Positions 41,865 through 46,966 of a stretch of 64,000 nt of DNA are shown piece after piece; the first letter of the stretch is position 1; every line of letters starts with the position of its first letter. Below the pieces are notes generated by a model that saw nothing but the letters and a program-made list of their open reading frames with translations, did not search any database and was not told the origin of the DNA. Source of the stretch: Sphingobacteriales bacterium 50-39 (GTDB lineage Bacteria > Bacteroidota > Bacteroidia > Chitinophagales > Chitinophagaceae); assembly GCA_001898505.1 (NCBI GenBank), contig MKTZ01000011.1, forward strand, positions 434,001-498,000, written 5' to 3'. A program made the position numbers and the translations under genes.

Positions 41865-42806
41865 CTATGCGCGGTCTTTTTTTAATTCTCTTTTTTCTGC
41901 GTGTGCGGTCGCGGCCTCTCTCACCCAGGCGCCTTCCTCGTGCGCGCGTACCCTGGCGGCCAGCCTTTCTTTGTTGCAAGGCCCATTGCCTTTTACGACA
42001 TTCCAAAACTCGTCCCAGTCGATGGCGCCAAAATCATAGTGCTGGCGCTGTTCATTCCATTTCAGGTCAGGGTCGGGGATAGTCATACCCAGTATCTTGA
42101 CCTGCTCCGCACATATATCTACAAAACGCTGACGCAGCTCGTCATTGGAGAATCGCTTGATCTTCCATTGCATGCTCTGCGCGGTATGCGGGGATGCATC
42201 GTCATTAGGACCAAACATCATGACGGAAGGCCACCACCAGCGGTCGATGGCATCCTGGCACATCCTGCGCTGTCCTGCGCTGCCCTTGCTGAGCGTGAGC
42301 AGTATCTCGAACCCCTGTCGCTGATGAAAGCTTTCTTCTTTACAGATACGCACCATCGCCCGCGCATAAGGGCCATAGGACGCCCTGCACAAAGGTACCT
42401 GGTTCATGATCGCGGCTCCATCCACGAGCCAGCCGATAGCCCCCATATCCGCCCAGGTGAGGGTAGGGTAATTGAAGATGGAGGAATATTTGGCTTTACC
42501 GGTGTGCAGCTGCTCCAATAGCTCTTCCCGGCCGGCGCCCAGGGTTTCGGTGGCTGCATAAAGATAAAGTCCATGTCCGGCCTCATCCTGCACCTTGGCT
42601 ATCAGGGTTGCCTTGCGGCGAAGAGTGGGGGCGCGCGTGATCCAGTTGGCTTCTGGCAACATACCCACGATCTCACTATGGGCATGCTGGGACATCTGCC
42701 GGATAAGGGTTTTACGATAGGCATCGGGCATCCAATCCTTTGGCTCGATGCGAATGTCAGCGTCTATCTTATCCTGGAATATCTTTTCAAGGTCCTGCAC
42801 AGACAT
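41865..42806 (-). CDS. paaA: phenylacetyl-CoA epoxidase catalytic subunit PaaA
   Basis: 313 residues from ATG 42806 ('[18 protein letters not shown]'); an upstream TTG at 42827 is less likely and overlaps the promoter. The di-iron ligands come from Glu/His in '[18 protein letters not shown]', '[13 protein letters not shown]', '[13 protein letters not shown]' and 'DIDRWWWP'-like helices. The oxygenase forms the ring epoxide of phenylacetyl-CoA. A perfect palindrome lies 44 bases upstream. Confidence 0.96.
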
Positions 42807-42823
42807 GTGATGAATATTTACCC

Positions 42824-42831
42824 GCAAGGTA
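42824..42831 (-). promoter_or_regulatory. weak -7 box of paaA
   Basis: Minus strand reads TACCTTGC, six of eight consensus positions, 17 bases before ATG 42806. The palindrome ends 18 bases upstream of it, so a bound repressor would cover the -33 region. Confidence 0.4.
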
Positions 42832-42849
42832 CCTTTTTTTAGCGAAAAA

Positions 42850-42867
42850 AACTAACAGGTGTTAGTT
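42850..42867. promoter_or_regulatory. palindromic operator candidate before paaA
   Basis: AACTAACA and TGTTAGTT form perfect 8-bp arms around GG. The core CTAACA-nn-TGTTAG recurs at 44604-44617 in front of the TetR gene and nowhere else that I found. TetR-family proteins bind such short palindromes as dimers, so this is probably the PaaR site. Confidence 0.75.
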
Positions 42868-42886
42868 GGGGAAGCGCCCCTGGCGG

Positions 42887-43978
42887 CTACTTTGAGTCAA
42901 AGTCAATAACGACCTTTTCGGTGCGGGGATGGGACTGGCAGGTAAGGATAAAACCCGCCTTGAGCTCTTCTTCTTCCAGGGCATAGTTCACTTCCATTTC
43001 AACCTTCCCTTCGAGCAGCCTGGCCCGGCAAGTACAACATACGCCTCCCTTGCAGGCGAAGGGAAGATCGGCTCCCTGCATCAGGGCGCCATCCAGGATG
43101 GAGTCACCATCGACCGGCAATTCAAAATCGAAGCTGTTACCATCGAGCCGTATGGTAACCTGGCTGGTCTTGCCTTCCAGGGGAGCTGTGGTTGTCGTAT
43201 CTGCTGTTGTTGTGCGGCCGGCGGCTTTCCCTTCCTGTGTATGGAAGAGCTCAAAATGGATCTTTCTGGGGTCGAAGGCTTTTTCTTCCAGCCAGCTTTT
43301 TATGGTGAAGATCATTTCTGCCGGTCCGCAGAGAAATATTTCATCCGTCCCATTGAGATCGATGAGCTTCCCGCACAGCTCTCCGCATTTGGCGGCGTCG
43401 ATCCTGCCCTGGTGGAGTCCGATATCCACTTTTTCGCGGCTGAGGATATGATGTAACGCGAAGCGGTGCATATAGCGGTTTTTCAGGCCCTCCAGCTCTT
43501 CCCTGAATATGATGGAAGGTCGGTGCCTGTTGCCATATACGAGGGTAAAATGGCTTTCGGGTTCGGTGGCCAGCGTGGTCTTGATCAGGGAGAGGATGGG
43601 TGTAATACCGCTGCCTGCCGCAAAGGCGAGGTAATGTTTGGGCTTCGAGGGGTCCAGCTGTGTGTAGAACCTGCCGGTGGGTGGGAGCACGTCCAGCTCA
43701 TCGCCTACGTGCAGCTGGTCATTGGCGTAGGTGGAGAAAAGCCCTCGGGGTACTTTTTTTACGGCGATGCGAAGCTCCTTATCGAAAGGGCTGCTGCAGA
43801 TGGAATAGCTGCGGCGTATCTCCTCTCCTTCTATGCGGGTCCTTATGGTGATATTCTGTCCCTGTATGAAACGGAAGGTCTCGTGCAGATGCTCCGGTAC
43901 GGCGAAGGCTATGGAGACACAATCTTCTGTCTCCCGTCGAATGTCCGCTACCTGTAATTTGGCGAAATGACTGGCCAT
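42887..43978 (-). CDS. paaE: phenylacetyl-CoA epoxidase reductase PaaE
   Basis: 363 residues. Residues 1-240 are a ferredoxin-NADP reductase module: 'RRSYSICSSP' binds FAD, 'AAGSGITPILS' and 'FLCGPAEMI' bind NADP. Residues 270-360 are a plant-type [2Fe-2S] domain with 'CKGGVCCTCRA' and a distal Cys in 'ILTCQSHP'. It passes electrons from NADPH to PaaA. It sits upstream of paaA, next to paaR, rather than after paaD as in many clusters. Confidence 0.95.
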   Translation of the reverse strand: MASHFAKLQVADIRRETEDCVSIAFAVPEHLHETFRFIQGQNITIRTRIEGEEIRRSYSICSSPFDKELRIAVKKVPRGLFSTYANDQLHVGDELDVLPPTGRFYTQLDPSKPKHYLAFAAGSGITPILSLIKTTLATEPESHFTLVYGNRHRPSIIFREELEGLKNRYMHRFALHHILSREKVDIGLHQGRIDAAKCGELCGKLIDLNGTDEIFLCGPAEMIFTIKSWLEEKAFDPRKIHFELFHTQEGKAAGRTTTADTTTTAPLEGKTSQVTIRLDGNSFDFELPVDGDSILDGALMQGADLPFACKGGVCCTCRARLLEGKVEMEVNYALEEEELKAGFILTCQSHPRTEKVVIDFDSK

Positions 43979-43986
43979 GTTGGATG

Positions 43987-44577
43987 CTATTTCTTTAGTC
44001 CTTCGATGAGGTATTTTACCATGTTGGATTCCAGCGCTTCGGCGCCGGTGGTTTTACGGCTGCGTTGCCAGGAGTCTATGCCACTGACTGCGGAGAGTAT
44101 GATCAGCACGGCCACGTAGGGGTCGATATGTTTCATTTCGCCTTTGGCGATACCTTCTTCTATGATATCTCCCAATCTTTTGCGATAGTTGCGCCGCTGG
44201 TTGAGAAAGTTGGAGAGATAGGGTTCGGGCAGATGACGCCATTCATGGTCGGCGATATAAATGTACTCGTATTGGTCGAGCATCATGCGTATATGCAGCC
44301 GGATGATGGATTCCATCTTTTTTAGGGTGGACTGGTTGCTGACCTCCACTTGCTCGAGGTTGGTCATAAATTCGTTGGCGACCTTGAAACAGATGGTCTG
44401 GAGTATCTCCGCCTTGGACTGGATATGGTTGTACAGGCTGGCTGCTTCTACTCCTACGTGTTCGGCCAGATCGCGCATAGAGGCAGCTCCGAACCCTTTT
44501 TCACGGAAGAGCTTGGATGCCTTTTCAATGATGACTTCCTTCTTAGTGCTGTTCTTTTTACTTTGGATCTTTGCCAT
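43987..44577 (-). CDS. paaR: TetR-family regulator of the paa cluster
   Basis: 196 residues from 'MAKIQSKKNSTKKEVIIEKA'; an ATG at 44610 would start inside the operator palindrome. The HTH is 'RDLAEHVGVEAASLYNHIQS'. The C-terminal ligand domain is typical of the family (about 190 residues). It lies 8 bases before paaE. By analogy with PaaR of other bacteria the inducer is probably phenylacetyl-CoA; that is inference. Confidence 0.88.
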   Translation of the reverse strand: MAKIQSKKNSTKKEVIIEKASKLFREKGFGAASMRDLAEHVGVEAASLYNHIQSKAEILQTICFKVANEFMTNLEQVEVSNQSTLKKMESIIRLHIRMMLDQYEYIYIADHEWRHLPEPYLSNFLNQRRNYRKRLGDIIEEGIAKGEMKHIDPYVAVLIILSAVSGIDSWQRSRKTTGAEALESNMVKYLIEGLKK

Positions 44578-44586
44578 AGACGGTTG

Positions 44587-44594
44587 TAAAGGTA
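44587..44594 (-). promoter_or_regulatory. -7 box of paaR
   Basis: Minus strand reads TACCTTTA, seven of eight consensus positions, nine bases before ATG 44577. The operator palindrome starts nine bases upstream of the box, which fits autorepression. Confidence 0.45.
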
Positions 44595-44602
44595 TAAAAA
44601 AC

Positions 44603-44618
44603 GCTAACAAGTGTTAGT
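44603..44618. promoter_or_regulatory. palindromic operator candidate before paaR
   Basis: CTAACA and TGTTAG around AG (44604-44617), the same core as at 42850-42867. It lies between divergent paaR and the sugar kinase gene, whose -7 box is 23 bases away, so both might respond. Confidence 0.72.
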
Positions 44619-44698: not shown

Positions 44699-45622
44699 AT
44701 GTCTTTAATCGTTGTAGGTTCCATGGCGTACGATGCAATTGAAACGCCTTTCGGAAAAACAGACTGGATCGTAGGTGGGGCGGCTACTTATGCTGCCTAT
44801 GCCGCCAGCAATTTCATCAAGCCCATCAACCAGGTATCTATTGTAGGGTATGATTTTGCAAAAGAGGAAATGGACGAATTAAAGAAGAGAGGGGTAAACC
44901 TGGAAGGGGTAGAGGTGGTCAAGGACAAGAAGTCGTTCTTCTGGAGCGGCCGGTATCACCTGGATATGAATAGCCGGGACACGCTCGTTACGGACCTCAA
45001 TGTGCTGGCTGATTTCAATCCTATCATTCCGGAAAGCTACCAGGGTAGCGAGTTCCTGATGCTGGGCAATGTATTGCCGAGCCTGCAGATCAGTGTGGTA
45101 GAGCAATTGAAGACCCGCCCCAAGTTGATCGCGATGGATACCATGAACTTCTGGATGGATAATGCCCTGGATGATCTGAAAAGGCTGTTGACGATGGTGG
45201 ATGTGCTCCTGGTAAATGACAGCGAAGCCCGTCAGCTCAGCGGTCAGTTCTCGCTGGTCAAGGCGGCAAAAGAGATACAGAAGATGGGCCCTAAATACCT
45301 TGTGATCAAAAAAGGCGAACATGGAGCCCTGCTCTTTCATAAGGACCAGGTGTTCTTTGCGCCGGCGTTGCCTTTGGAAGAAGTTTTCGATCCCACGGGT
45401 GCGGGGGATACCTTCGCGGGCGGCTTTATCGGTCATATCGCACAGACGCGGGATGTGTCTTTTGAGAATATGAAGACGGCGATCATCGTAGGCTCTGCCA
45501 TGGCGTCGTTCTGCGTAGAGAAGTTCGGACCTACCCGTCTGAAAGAGATCACCAAAGCTGATATCGATGGCAGGATACGGCAGTTTGTCGATCTGGTGAA
45601 TTTTGATATCGAGCTGGTATAG
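44699..45622 (+). CDS. PfkB-family carbohydrate or nucleoside kinase
   Basis: 307 residues. The N-terminal 'VGSMAYDAIETPFG' and 'VGGAATYAAYAAS' are the substrate-side signature. 'DPTGAGDTFAGGFIGHI' has the catalytic Asp and anion hole. 'LLVNDSEARQLSG' is the second conserved stretch. The family phosphorylates ribose, fructose, adenosine and similar substrates; specificity cannot be read. It diverges from paaR but has no evident pathway link. It was probably acquired into this position independently. Confidence 0.9.
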   Translation: MSLIVVGSMAYDAIETPFGKTDWIVGGAATYAAYAASNFIKPINQVSIVGYDFAKEEMDELKKRGVNLEGVEVVKDKKSFFWSGRYHLDMNSRDTLVTDLNVLADFNPIIPESYQGSEFLMLGNVLPSLQISVVEQLKTRPKLIAMDTMNFWMDNALDDLKRLLTMVDVLLVNDSEARQLSGQFSLVKAAKEIQKMGPKYLVIKKGEHGALLFHKDQVFFAPALPLEEVFDPTGAGDTFAGGFIGHIAQTRDVSFENMKTAIIVGSAMASFCVEKFGPTRLKEITKADIDGRIRQFVDLVNFDIELV

Positions 45623-45684: not shown

Positions 45685-45716
45685 TTTGGATATTCTTACT
45701 TTCATGCCTAATTTTG
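45685..45716 (+). promoter_or_regulatory. promoter of the asd leader
   Basis: -33 TTTG at 45685-45688 and -7 TAATTTTG at 45709-45716, separated by 20 bases, the best full promoter match in the window. Transcription should start at about 45721-45723, only a few bases before the leader ATG at 45725. Confidence 0.75.
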
Positions 45717-45724
45717 GCGGCGTT

Positions 45725-45793
45725 ATGAAAATGATAATGAAACATACAAAGAAGCAGACCAAGAAGATGTTCCCGCGGCGGGAAGGGGTTTGA
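45725..45793 (+). CDS. leader peptide rich in Met, Lys, Thr (22 aa)
   Basis: Starts MKMIMKHTKKQTKKM and ends seven residues later at TGA 45791-45793. Thirteen of the first 15 codons are for Met (4), Lys (6), Thr (2) or Ile (1), all made from aspartate semialdehyde, the product of the downstream asd gene. The control codons stop exactly at segment 1 (45770) of the attenuator. Too short for standard gene finders. The peptide itself probably has no other role; its translation is the signal. Confidence 0.82.
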   Translation: MKMIMKHTKKQTKKMFPRREGV

Positions 45794-45850
45794 TTGTTTT
45801 GTATGACAAGATAACGAGAGCCTTCCCGGATTGGGGAGGCTCTTTTTTTT
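45770..45850 (+). promoter_or_regulatory. transcription attenuator of asd
   Basis: Four RNA segments: 1 = TTCCCG (45770-45775), 2 = CGGGAAGG (45779-45786), 3 = CCTTCCC within the terminator 5' arm (45821-45827), 4 = the terminator 3' arm (45833-45843). 1:2 is a perfect 6-bp hairpin with loop CGG; 2:3 pairs GGGAAGG with CCTTCCC perfectly; 3:4 is the intrinsic terminator. Each pairing excludes the next. Ribosome stalling on Lys/Thr/Met codons would mask 1, free 2 to pair with 3, and let asd be transcribed. Confidence 0.8.
45817..45850 (+). terminator. intrinsic terminator of the asd attenuator
   Basis: AGAGCCTTCCC and GGGGAGGCTCT form an 11-bp stem with one wobble pair around GGATT, followed by eight T. 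It lies 126 bases before asd with no gene in between that it could end except the leader peptide. Confidence 0.9.
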
Positions 45851-45976
45851 GACCATGGCCCGGGGACAAACAGGCTTGTGGTTCGTTAAAAGGGACGCTA
45901 GATCTTTTAAACAATAAATAAAAAAACAATGCTTCCTGCCTCGTATGGCATATCGGAAGCCAAAAACGTAAAAAAA

Positions 45977-46966
45977 ATGAAAGTTGCAATCGTAGGCGCC
46001 ACTGGTCTGGTGGGCACCAAAATGTTAGAGGTACTCGCGGAAAGGAATTTCCCTGTCACGGAATTGATCCCTGTAGCCTCGGAAAGGTCGGTTGGTAAGG
46101 AAGTTGAATTCAAGGGGAAGAAATACAAGGTCGTGAGCGCCACCGATGCGATTGCAGCAAAACCTGCCGTAGCCATCTTCTCTGCCGGTGGTGGTACATC
46201 CCTGGAATGGGCCCCGAAATTTGCAGCGGCGGGCATCACGGTCATCGACAACTCCTCTGCTTGGAGAATGGACCCGACCAAGAAGCTGGTAGTGCCCGAG
46301 CTGAATGCGGATGCCTTGACAAAAGAGGACAAGATCATTGCCAACCCCAATTGCTCTACCATCCAGATGGTGGTGGCGCTGAACCCGCTGCATAAGAAGT
46401 ACAAGGTAAAAAGGATTGTAGTATCGACTTACCAGAGTGTCACGGGTACGGGTGTGAAGGCTGTGACGCAGTTGATGAATGAAAGGAAAGGTGTACAGGG
46501 CGAGATGGCGTATAAATACCCCATTGACCTGAATGTCATTCCCCAGATAGATGTATTCCTCGATAATGGATATACGAAGGAAGAGATGAAGATGGTTAAC
46601 GAGACCAGGAAGATCATGCGCGATGACTCCATCCGGGTGACGGCGACGACTGTTCGCATCCCTGTGGTGGGTGGTCATAGCGAGGCGGTGAATGTGGAGT
46701 TTGAAAATGACTTTGACCTGGCGGAGGTCAAGCAGCTGTTGTCCAGGGCGCCGGGTGTGGTGGTAGTGGATGATCCTTCGACACAGCAATATCCGATGCC
46801 TAAGGACGCGCATGATAAGGACGATGTTTTTGTGGGCAGGCTGAGAAGGGACGAGACACAGCCGAATACGCTGAATATGTGGGTGGTGAGCGATAACCTG
46901 CGCAAGGGGGCAGCTACGAATGCGGTGCAGATAGCGGAGTATTTGCTGGGACAAAAATTGATTTAG
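45977..46966 (+). CDS. asd: aspartate-semialdehyde dehydrogenase
   Basis: 329 residues from 'MKVAIVGATGLVG'; an in-frame ATG at 45929 would add 16 residues that lack family similarity. 'GATGLVG' binds NADP, Cys126 in 'NPNCSTIQ' is the nucleophile, 'STYQSVTGTG' and 'RIPVVGGHSEAVN' (with the catalytic His and Arg) complete the site. It reduces aspartyl phosphate, feeding Lys, Met, Thr and Ile synthesis. Transcription passes through the attenuator upstream, so it is probably controlled by supply of those amino acids. Confidence 0.96.
   Translation: MKVAIVGATGLVGTKMLEVLAERNFPVTELIPVASERSVGKEVEFKGKKYKVVSATDAIAAKPAVAIFSAGGGTSLEWAPKFAAAGITVIDNSSAWRMDPTKKLVVPELNADALTKEDKIIANPNCSTIQMVVALNPLHKKYKVKRIVVSTYQSVTGTGVKAVTQLMNERKGVQGEMAYKYPIDLNVIPQIDVFLDNGYTKEEMKMVNETRKIMRDDSIRVTATTVRIPVVGGHSEAVNVEFENDFDLAEVKQLLSRAPGVVVVDDPSTQQYPMPKDAHDKDDVFVGRLRRDETQPNTLNMWVVSDNLRKGAATNAVQIAEYLLGQKLI

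Follow-up and report, generated by a model that had tools for sequence, protein, structure and literature searches.

A conserved leader upstream of asd in Chitinophagaceae, predicted to act as a ribosome-mediated transcription attenuator with lysine and threonine control codons

The asd gene of Sphingobacteriales bacterium 50-39, located in the 64,000-nt stretch of DNA analyzed here (the window), is preceded by a leader that, judging from sequence comparison, is very probably a classical ribosome-mediated transcription attenuator responding to lysine together with threonine or isoleucine. Comparison with relatives supports the leader open reading frame (ORF), the position of its promoter, the terminator, antiterminator, and A:D helices described below, and the link to asd. 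The product, Asd, carries out the enzyme step common to the synthesis of lysine, threonine, methionine, and isoleucine. The leader is apparently a conserved and so far undescribed member of this classic mechanism in Chitinophagaceae.

Layout and conservation of the leader

The elements of the locus, in window coordinates, are as follows.

45685-45716, + strand: Bacteroidota-type promoter, with TTTG at 45685-45688, a 20-nt spacer, and TAATTTTG at 45709-45716
45725-45793, + strand: leader ORF of 22 codons, MKMIMKHTKKQTKKMFPRREGV followed by a stop codon, with homologues of its core KHTKRTKK
45743-45751, + strand: helix element A (the H-T-K codons), which pairs with D as part of the anti-antiterminator, as judged by swap tests
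45758-45766, + strand: putative sensor codons Thr-Lys-Lys (ACC AAG AAG), proposed from amino acid conservation, synonymous variation, and a position outside A:D
45770-45775, + strand: segment 1 (B), TTCCCG, which forms a weakly supported hairpin with the 5' portion of segment 2
45779-45786, + strand: segment 2 (C), CGGGAAGG, the 5' arm of the antiterminator
45797-45805, + strand: element D, TTTTGTATG, which pairs with A
45818-45828, + strand: segment 3 (E), common to the antiterminator and the terminator
45833-45850, + strand: segment 4 (F), GGGGAGGCTC at 45833-45842 followed by eight T at 45843-45850, the 3' arm of the terminator
45977-46966, + strand: asd, aspartate-semialdehyde dehydrogenase, the regulated gene, with matches to NF011456 and TIGR01296
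46964-46993, + strand: intrinsic terminator 3' of asd

An earlier reading of this DNA from its letters alone (the sequence-only reading) had picked out the promoter, the 22-codon ORF, in which 13 of the first 15 codons specify Met, Lys, Thr, or Ile, and the strong terminator with its run of T, and each is present as described; the arrangement exceeds chance by a wide margin. A -7 box with at most one mismatch is found in 108 of the 110 homologous leaders, its end lying mostly 7 to 9 nt 5' of the leader ATG. Placing the start site from the -12 to -5 box position reported for Flavobacterium (PMC9723704), we predict that transcription begins at about 45721, leaving a 5' untranslated region (UTR) of about 4 nt ahead of the leader ATG; in Bacteroides, 5' UTRs shorter than 10 nt make up only about 3.7% (PMC7366714).

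The identity of the downstream gene is clear, with its product scoring 453 bits against NF011456 (cut-off 223) and 431.9 bits against TIGR01296 (cut-off 324.2). Since asd has its own terminator, it forms with the leader a single-gene unit, as the sequence-only reading had held in speaking of a leader for asd alone; that description stands for the window and fails for nine relatives that carry a copy before dapA (see below). Terminator-like sites number 7 between 45600 and 47050, versus 1.5 expected, and the leader terminator heads the list. Directly 5' of the leader lies a gene for a PfkB-family sugar kinase (44699-45622) with weak matches to NCBIfam ribokinase models, and the C-terminal sequence of such a kinase is also found upstream of asd in several relatives. 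Farther away, on the minus strand (41865-44610), are genes resembling those for phenylacetyl-CoA epoxidase subunits, which we take to be paaA and paaE, beside a presumed TetR-type regulator.

We searched 195 genomes of the family, of which 184 have Asd, and analyzed the asd upstream regions of 129. The KHTKRTKK core and a terminator of one form occur together in 110 of the 129 regions, every one of the 110 leaders possessing that terminator; the remaining 19 have no recognizable leader. Thus, a short ORF with codons for amino acids of the pathway (Lys and Thr) is kept before asd, with an intrinsic terminator in between. The sequence-only reading had made its case depend on such conservation and had proposed the alignment of asd upstream regions from the family: that alignment yields the expected short ORF, with its core and terminator kept and both terminator and antiterminator covarying. 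A codon-degenerate search for KHTKRTKK in 84,980 genomes (one per species) returned 72 matches, 58 of which lie 128 to 270 nt 5' of asd on the same strand; one more runs off a contig end, and the other 13, mostly from other phyla, are followed by neither asd nor dapA. Terrimonas ferruginea, Lacibacter cauensis, and Sediminibacterium goheungense, which are cultivable, are among the carriers. Outside the core, the peptide varies in sequence, and its length ranges from 13 to 31 aa. A covariance search found no second copy in the window's own genome, the other 18 matches having E values of at least 0.06 and those inspected being unrelated terminator-like sequences. Across the phylum, covariance matches below about 50 bits are a mixture, in which thrA and ilvD leaders from other families stand beside terminators matched by chance.

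Competing helices and the proposed mechanism

The leader fold is more stable than all of 200 dinucleotide shuffles (z = -3.86). In the terminator, both sides have changed at 6 of 9 pairs and 96% of the alignment cells are paired; in the antiterminator, which is mutually exclusive with the terminator, the same kind of two-sided change is seen in 3 of 8 pairs, and 89% of the cells are paired. Because RNAalifold, which fits a single fold, cannot show exclusive helices, we turned to swap tests, in which the energy of natural partners is compared with that of partners exchanged between sequences. RNAalifold itself recovered the terminator alone, since D, in addition, varies in position, which a single fold cannot represent either. 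In the swap tests, the natural partners of C:E pair better than swapped ones (0/20000 permutations), and the same is true of the terminator, although the formal P values of all these tests are too small because the sequences are related to one another.

Among the best supported helices is one that the sequence-only reading had missed. The H-T-K codons, often with the next codon, pair in relatives with an element behind segment 2, which in the window lies 3' of the leader stop codon. The natural partners of this 9-bp A:D helix reach -10.5 kcal/mol, versus -7.9 kcal/mol for swapped ones (0/20000 permutations), and in 22 dissimilar representatives the result is still 0/20000, with the natural pairing better in 21. 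Replacement of CGC by TGC at codon 4 goes together with GCA in place of GCG in D (P = 0.0008), whereas pairing of the Thr-Lys-Lys codons with D, taken as a control, gives no signal (P = 0.78). As A:D crosses the antiterminator, the two should compete. The hairpin between segments 1 and 2 gives P values of 0.024 and 0.07 in the swap tests; it was left out of the alignment-column counts because it shifts by one base between sequences. Of the pairings that had been proposed for segment 2, that with segment 3 thus covaries and that with segment 1 is weakly supported. Likewise, of the three mutually exclusive stems that had been described, the terminator and antiterminator stand, and the structure sequestering the 5' arm of the antiterminator appears to be mainly A:D, a helix of control codons with a post-stop element, rather than the small 1:2 hairpin.

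From this arrangement we infer translation of the leader, stalling of the ribosome, the direction of control, and the amino acids sensed. RNA polymerase would start about 4 nt 5' of the leader ATG, and the leader would be translated while it is being transcribed. If charged Lys-tRNA or Thr-tRNA (or, in some relatives, Ile-tRNA) were scarce, the ribosome would stall at the Thr-Lys-Lys codons, covering A and segment 1, so that segment 2 could pair with segment 3 (45821-45828), block the terminator, and allow transcription of asd. With the tRNAs charged, the ribosome would reach the stop codon and cover segment 2, segments 3 and 4 would pair, and transcription would end near 45850. Should the ribosome be released, or should there be no translation, A:D and the 1:2 hairpin would restrain segment 2 and termination would be favored. 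The geometry is consistent with this scheme: in all 108 leaders analyzed, the start of segment 2 falls within the interval from 15 nt 5' to 6 nt 3' of the first stop-codon base, where a terminating ribosome would cover it. In a folding model, masking a ribosome at the stop codon covers segment 2 and removes the antiterminator, and masking one at the sensor codons lets segments 2 and 3 pair while segment 4 is still to be transcribed; the model is one of equilibrium, ignores kinetics, and does not tell stalling at earlier codons apart. Classical attenuators (trp, his, and thr) follow the same folding logic.

Other explanations of the same conservation fare poorly. One could suppose that the small peptide made from the ORF is itself functional, with a constitutive terminator behind it, given how strongly KHTKRTKK is conserved as a peptide. 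However, length and sequence vary beyond the core, the beginning of the core is constrained by its pairing with D, where compensatory changes occur, and segment 2, located at the ORF end or beyond it, covaries with segment 3, making this hardly plausible. We consider it equally implausible that the leader binds a metabolite or protein (as a lysine riboswitch, a T-box, or a target of an RNA-binding protein) and bears an incidental ORF. Mutually exclusive structures would suit such a leader, and lysine-pathway genes of other bacteria are under riboswitch control. Yet no Rfam family reaches its gathering score (the best weak match, Phe_leader, scores 23.6 bits against 55), relaxed thresholds add no relevant family, the window has no match to the Rfam lysine riboswitch aptamer, the leader is shorter than one would expect of a known aptamer, and the sensor codons vary synonymously. 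The terminated leader, a discrete RNA predicted to be about 130 nt long, might instead act in trans as a small RNA, as attenuator RNAs elsewhere have side roles in trans; since attenuation accounts for the conservation, we regard this as very improbable, if marginally less so than the preceding two.

Amino acids sensed and related leaders

If the leader is an attenuator, as we favor, the codons conserved at the control positions should indicate what it senses. Because leader ORFs were picked by a core profile, residue counts at the eight core positions are partly selected for; with that proviso, of the 110 asd leaders, 59 have Thr and 26 have Ile at codon 5, where Thr is written with each of its four codons. 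Lys, encoded by AAA or AAG, occupies codon 6 in 99 leaders and codon 7 in 95, making the tandem Lys the most constant part. At codon 5, Ser, Asn, Lys, and others replace Thr or Ile in the other 25. The leader in the window has one extra codon (K-K-Q-T-K-K), and so its triplet is placed at 45758-45766 and the profile scores its codon 5 as Gln. The first half of the core is constrained as RNA by A:D, so conservation of His there (and in part of Thr and Lys) says little about amino acids; moreover, the equilibrium model favors the antiterminator with a ribosome anywhere over A, so that the exact sensing position is putative. Methionine was considered as a sensed amino acid and dropped, being frequent only before the core and not conserved at control positions. 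Sensing would therefore be mainly of lysine, through the tandem Lys codons, and of threonine or isoleucine, through the codon before them, and not of methionine. The proposal of attenuation in the sequence-only reading thus gains support from conservation and covariation, while its set of sensed amino acids, which had included methionine, narrows.

A search with the asd-leader covariance model revealed copies of this attenuator 5' of dapA in nine genomes from five genera (L155, L185-L192). The dapA gene encodes the first step of the lysine branch. These copies keep Lys-Lys or Lys and have Val, Ser, or another residue in place of Thr/Ile. None of the nine has Thr or Ile at codon 5, versus 85 of the 110 asd leaders (P = 5e-6, kinship ignored; P = 0.0009 when counted over the five genera), the alignment being a judgement in two of the nine, where the dapA leader is shorter by a codon. 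In every one of these nine genomes, the asd leader has Thr or Ile there. Upstream regions of dapA outside the nine genomes, including that of the window genome, have no such leader, and dapA there is mostly directly behind another gene, which we take to be accA from its C terminus.

These counts also bear on a narrower version of the same attenuator, in which lysine would be the sole amino acid sensed and the Thr/Ile codon incidental. The constancy of the tandem Lys, the replacement of Thr/Ile in 25 leaders, and the occurrence in three other families of Lys-only, Lys-rich asd leaders with like terminators all speak for it; the prevalence of Thr/Ile at codon 5 of asd leaders, written with all four Thr codons, set against its complete absence from the dapA copies, speaks against it. 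We therefore think sensing of lysine alone unlikely, though deserving of real weight, and retain joint sensing of lysine and threonine/isoleucine.

Further leaders were seen before other genes. One family genome has a Lys-rich leader before lysA (MSLITSIKTIKTKKPYLYG; L196) that contains Thr codons, which blurs the argument for threonine sensing. Another has a Lys-rich leader (MTRKLHKSKKHLPNR; L200) before a gene for an aminotransferase related to aspartate aminotransferase, and a leader-like ORF (MSTIYTHTNCWKKHRYSEGYGIY; L195) with a terminator precedes a putative acyl-CoA thioesterase gene. In the window genome, a His leader (MKIRTHHHHHHFFLPNHMSGVRRW, then stop) with a terminator lies 5' of hisG (L002 1541-1690, G000:C25) and has the same promoter-to-ATG layout as the asd leader. 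In addition, a Thr-rich ORF that starts with GTG and ends in TTIITSTTTSTTR and a stop codon lies 5' of thrA (L181, C15), in the 300 nt or so that precede position 1506; a terminator is not obvious there. Leaders of thrA and ilvD were also found in other sampled Bacteroidota.

Relation to known systems and significance

Among known attenuators, thrL of Enterobacteriaceae resembles the asd leader in having Thr/Ile codons in a short ORF, a choice between terminator and antiterminator, and an aspartate-family gene downstream. However, it controls thrABC rather than asd and has no Lys codons, and the asd leader has no match to Thr_leader. The hisL and trpL leaders share control codons beside segment 1, a stop codon over segment 2, and a 3:4 terminator, but they serve other amino acids and genes, and in the asd leader an element 3' of the stop codon is the pairing partner of the first control codons. 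The asd RNA motif of Rfam is streptococcal, resembles the asd leader in name, and has no match in the window (PMC4448216). Closer by phylum are the leader-peptide attenuators upstream of amino acid biosynthesis operons in Flavobacterium psychrophilum, in the description of which the main text mentions neither asd nor lysine (PMC9723704).

The lysine riboswitch (L box), which controls lysine-pathway genes in other phyla, differs in sensing lysine directly by an aptamer, and none was found in the window. The open literature searched, which leaves one broad attenuator survey outside its scope, reports no asd leader and no lysine control codons; together with Rfam, it is in line with the sequence-only reading, which knew of no leader for asd alone in Bacteroidota. 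Given the his and thr leaders of the window genome, the thrA and ilvD leaders in Bacteroidota, and the Flavobacterium cases, the mechanism is ordinary for the phylum. The mechanism is thus known; the target gene, the Lys(+Thr) specificity, and the retuned copies appear to be new. On balance, we incline to the view that this is the first described attenuator with lysine control codons, that dapA acquired its copies from asd, with loss of the threonine codon retuning them, and that the 5' UTR is nearly absent.

In better-studied bacteria, the control of lysine usually relies on riboswitches, T-boxes, or repressors, and translation in Bacteroidota mostly begins without a Shine-Dalgarno sequence. 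With its ORF about 4 nt from the predicted transcript start, the leader would offer a tractable case of early initiation of this kind. If our interpretation is correct, lysine and the aspartate-family branch point would be added to the range of ribosome-mediated attenuation. Attenuator specificity would have evolved by codon replacement alone, visibly so within single genomes. Since the paired asd and dapA leaders of one genome differ in the Thr codon, specificity could be tested by single-codon changes, and the pairs would constitute a natural experiment on the amino acid specificity of attenuation.
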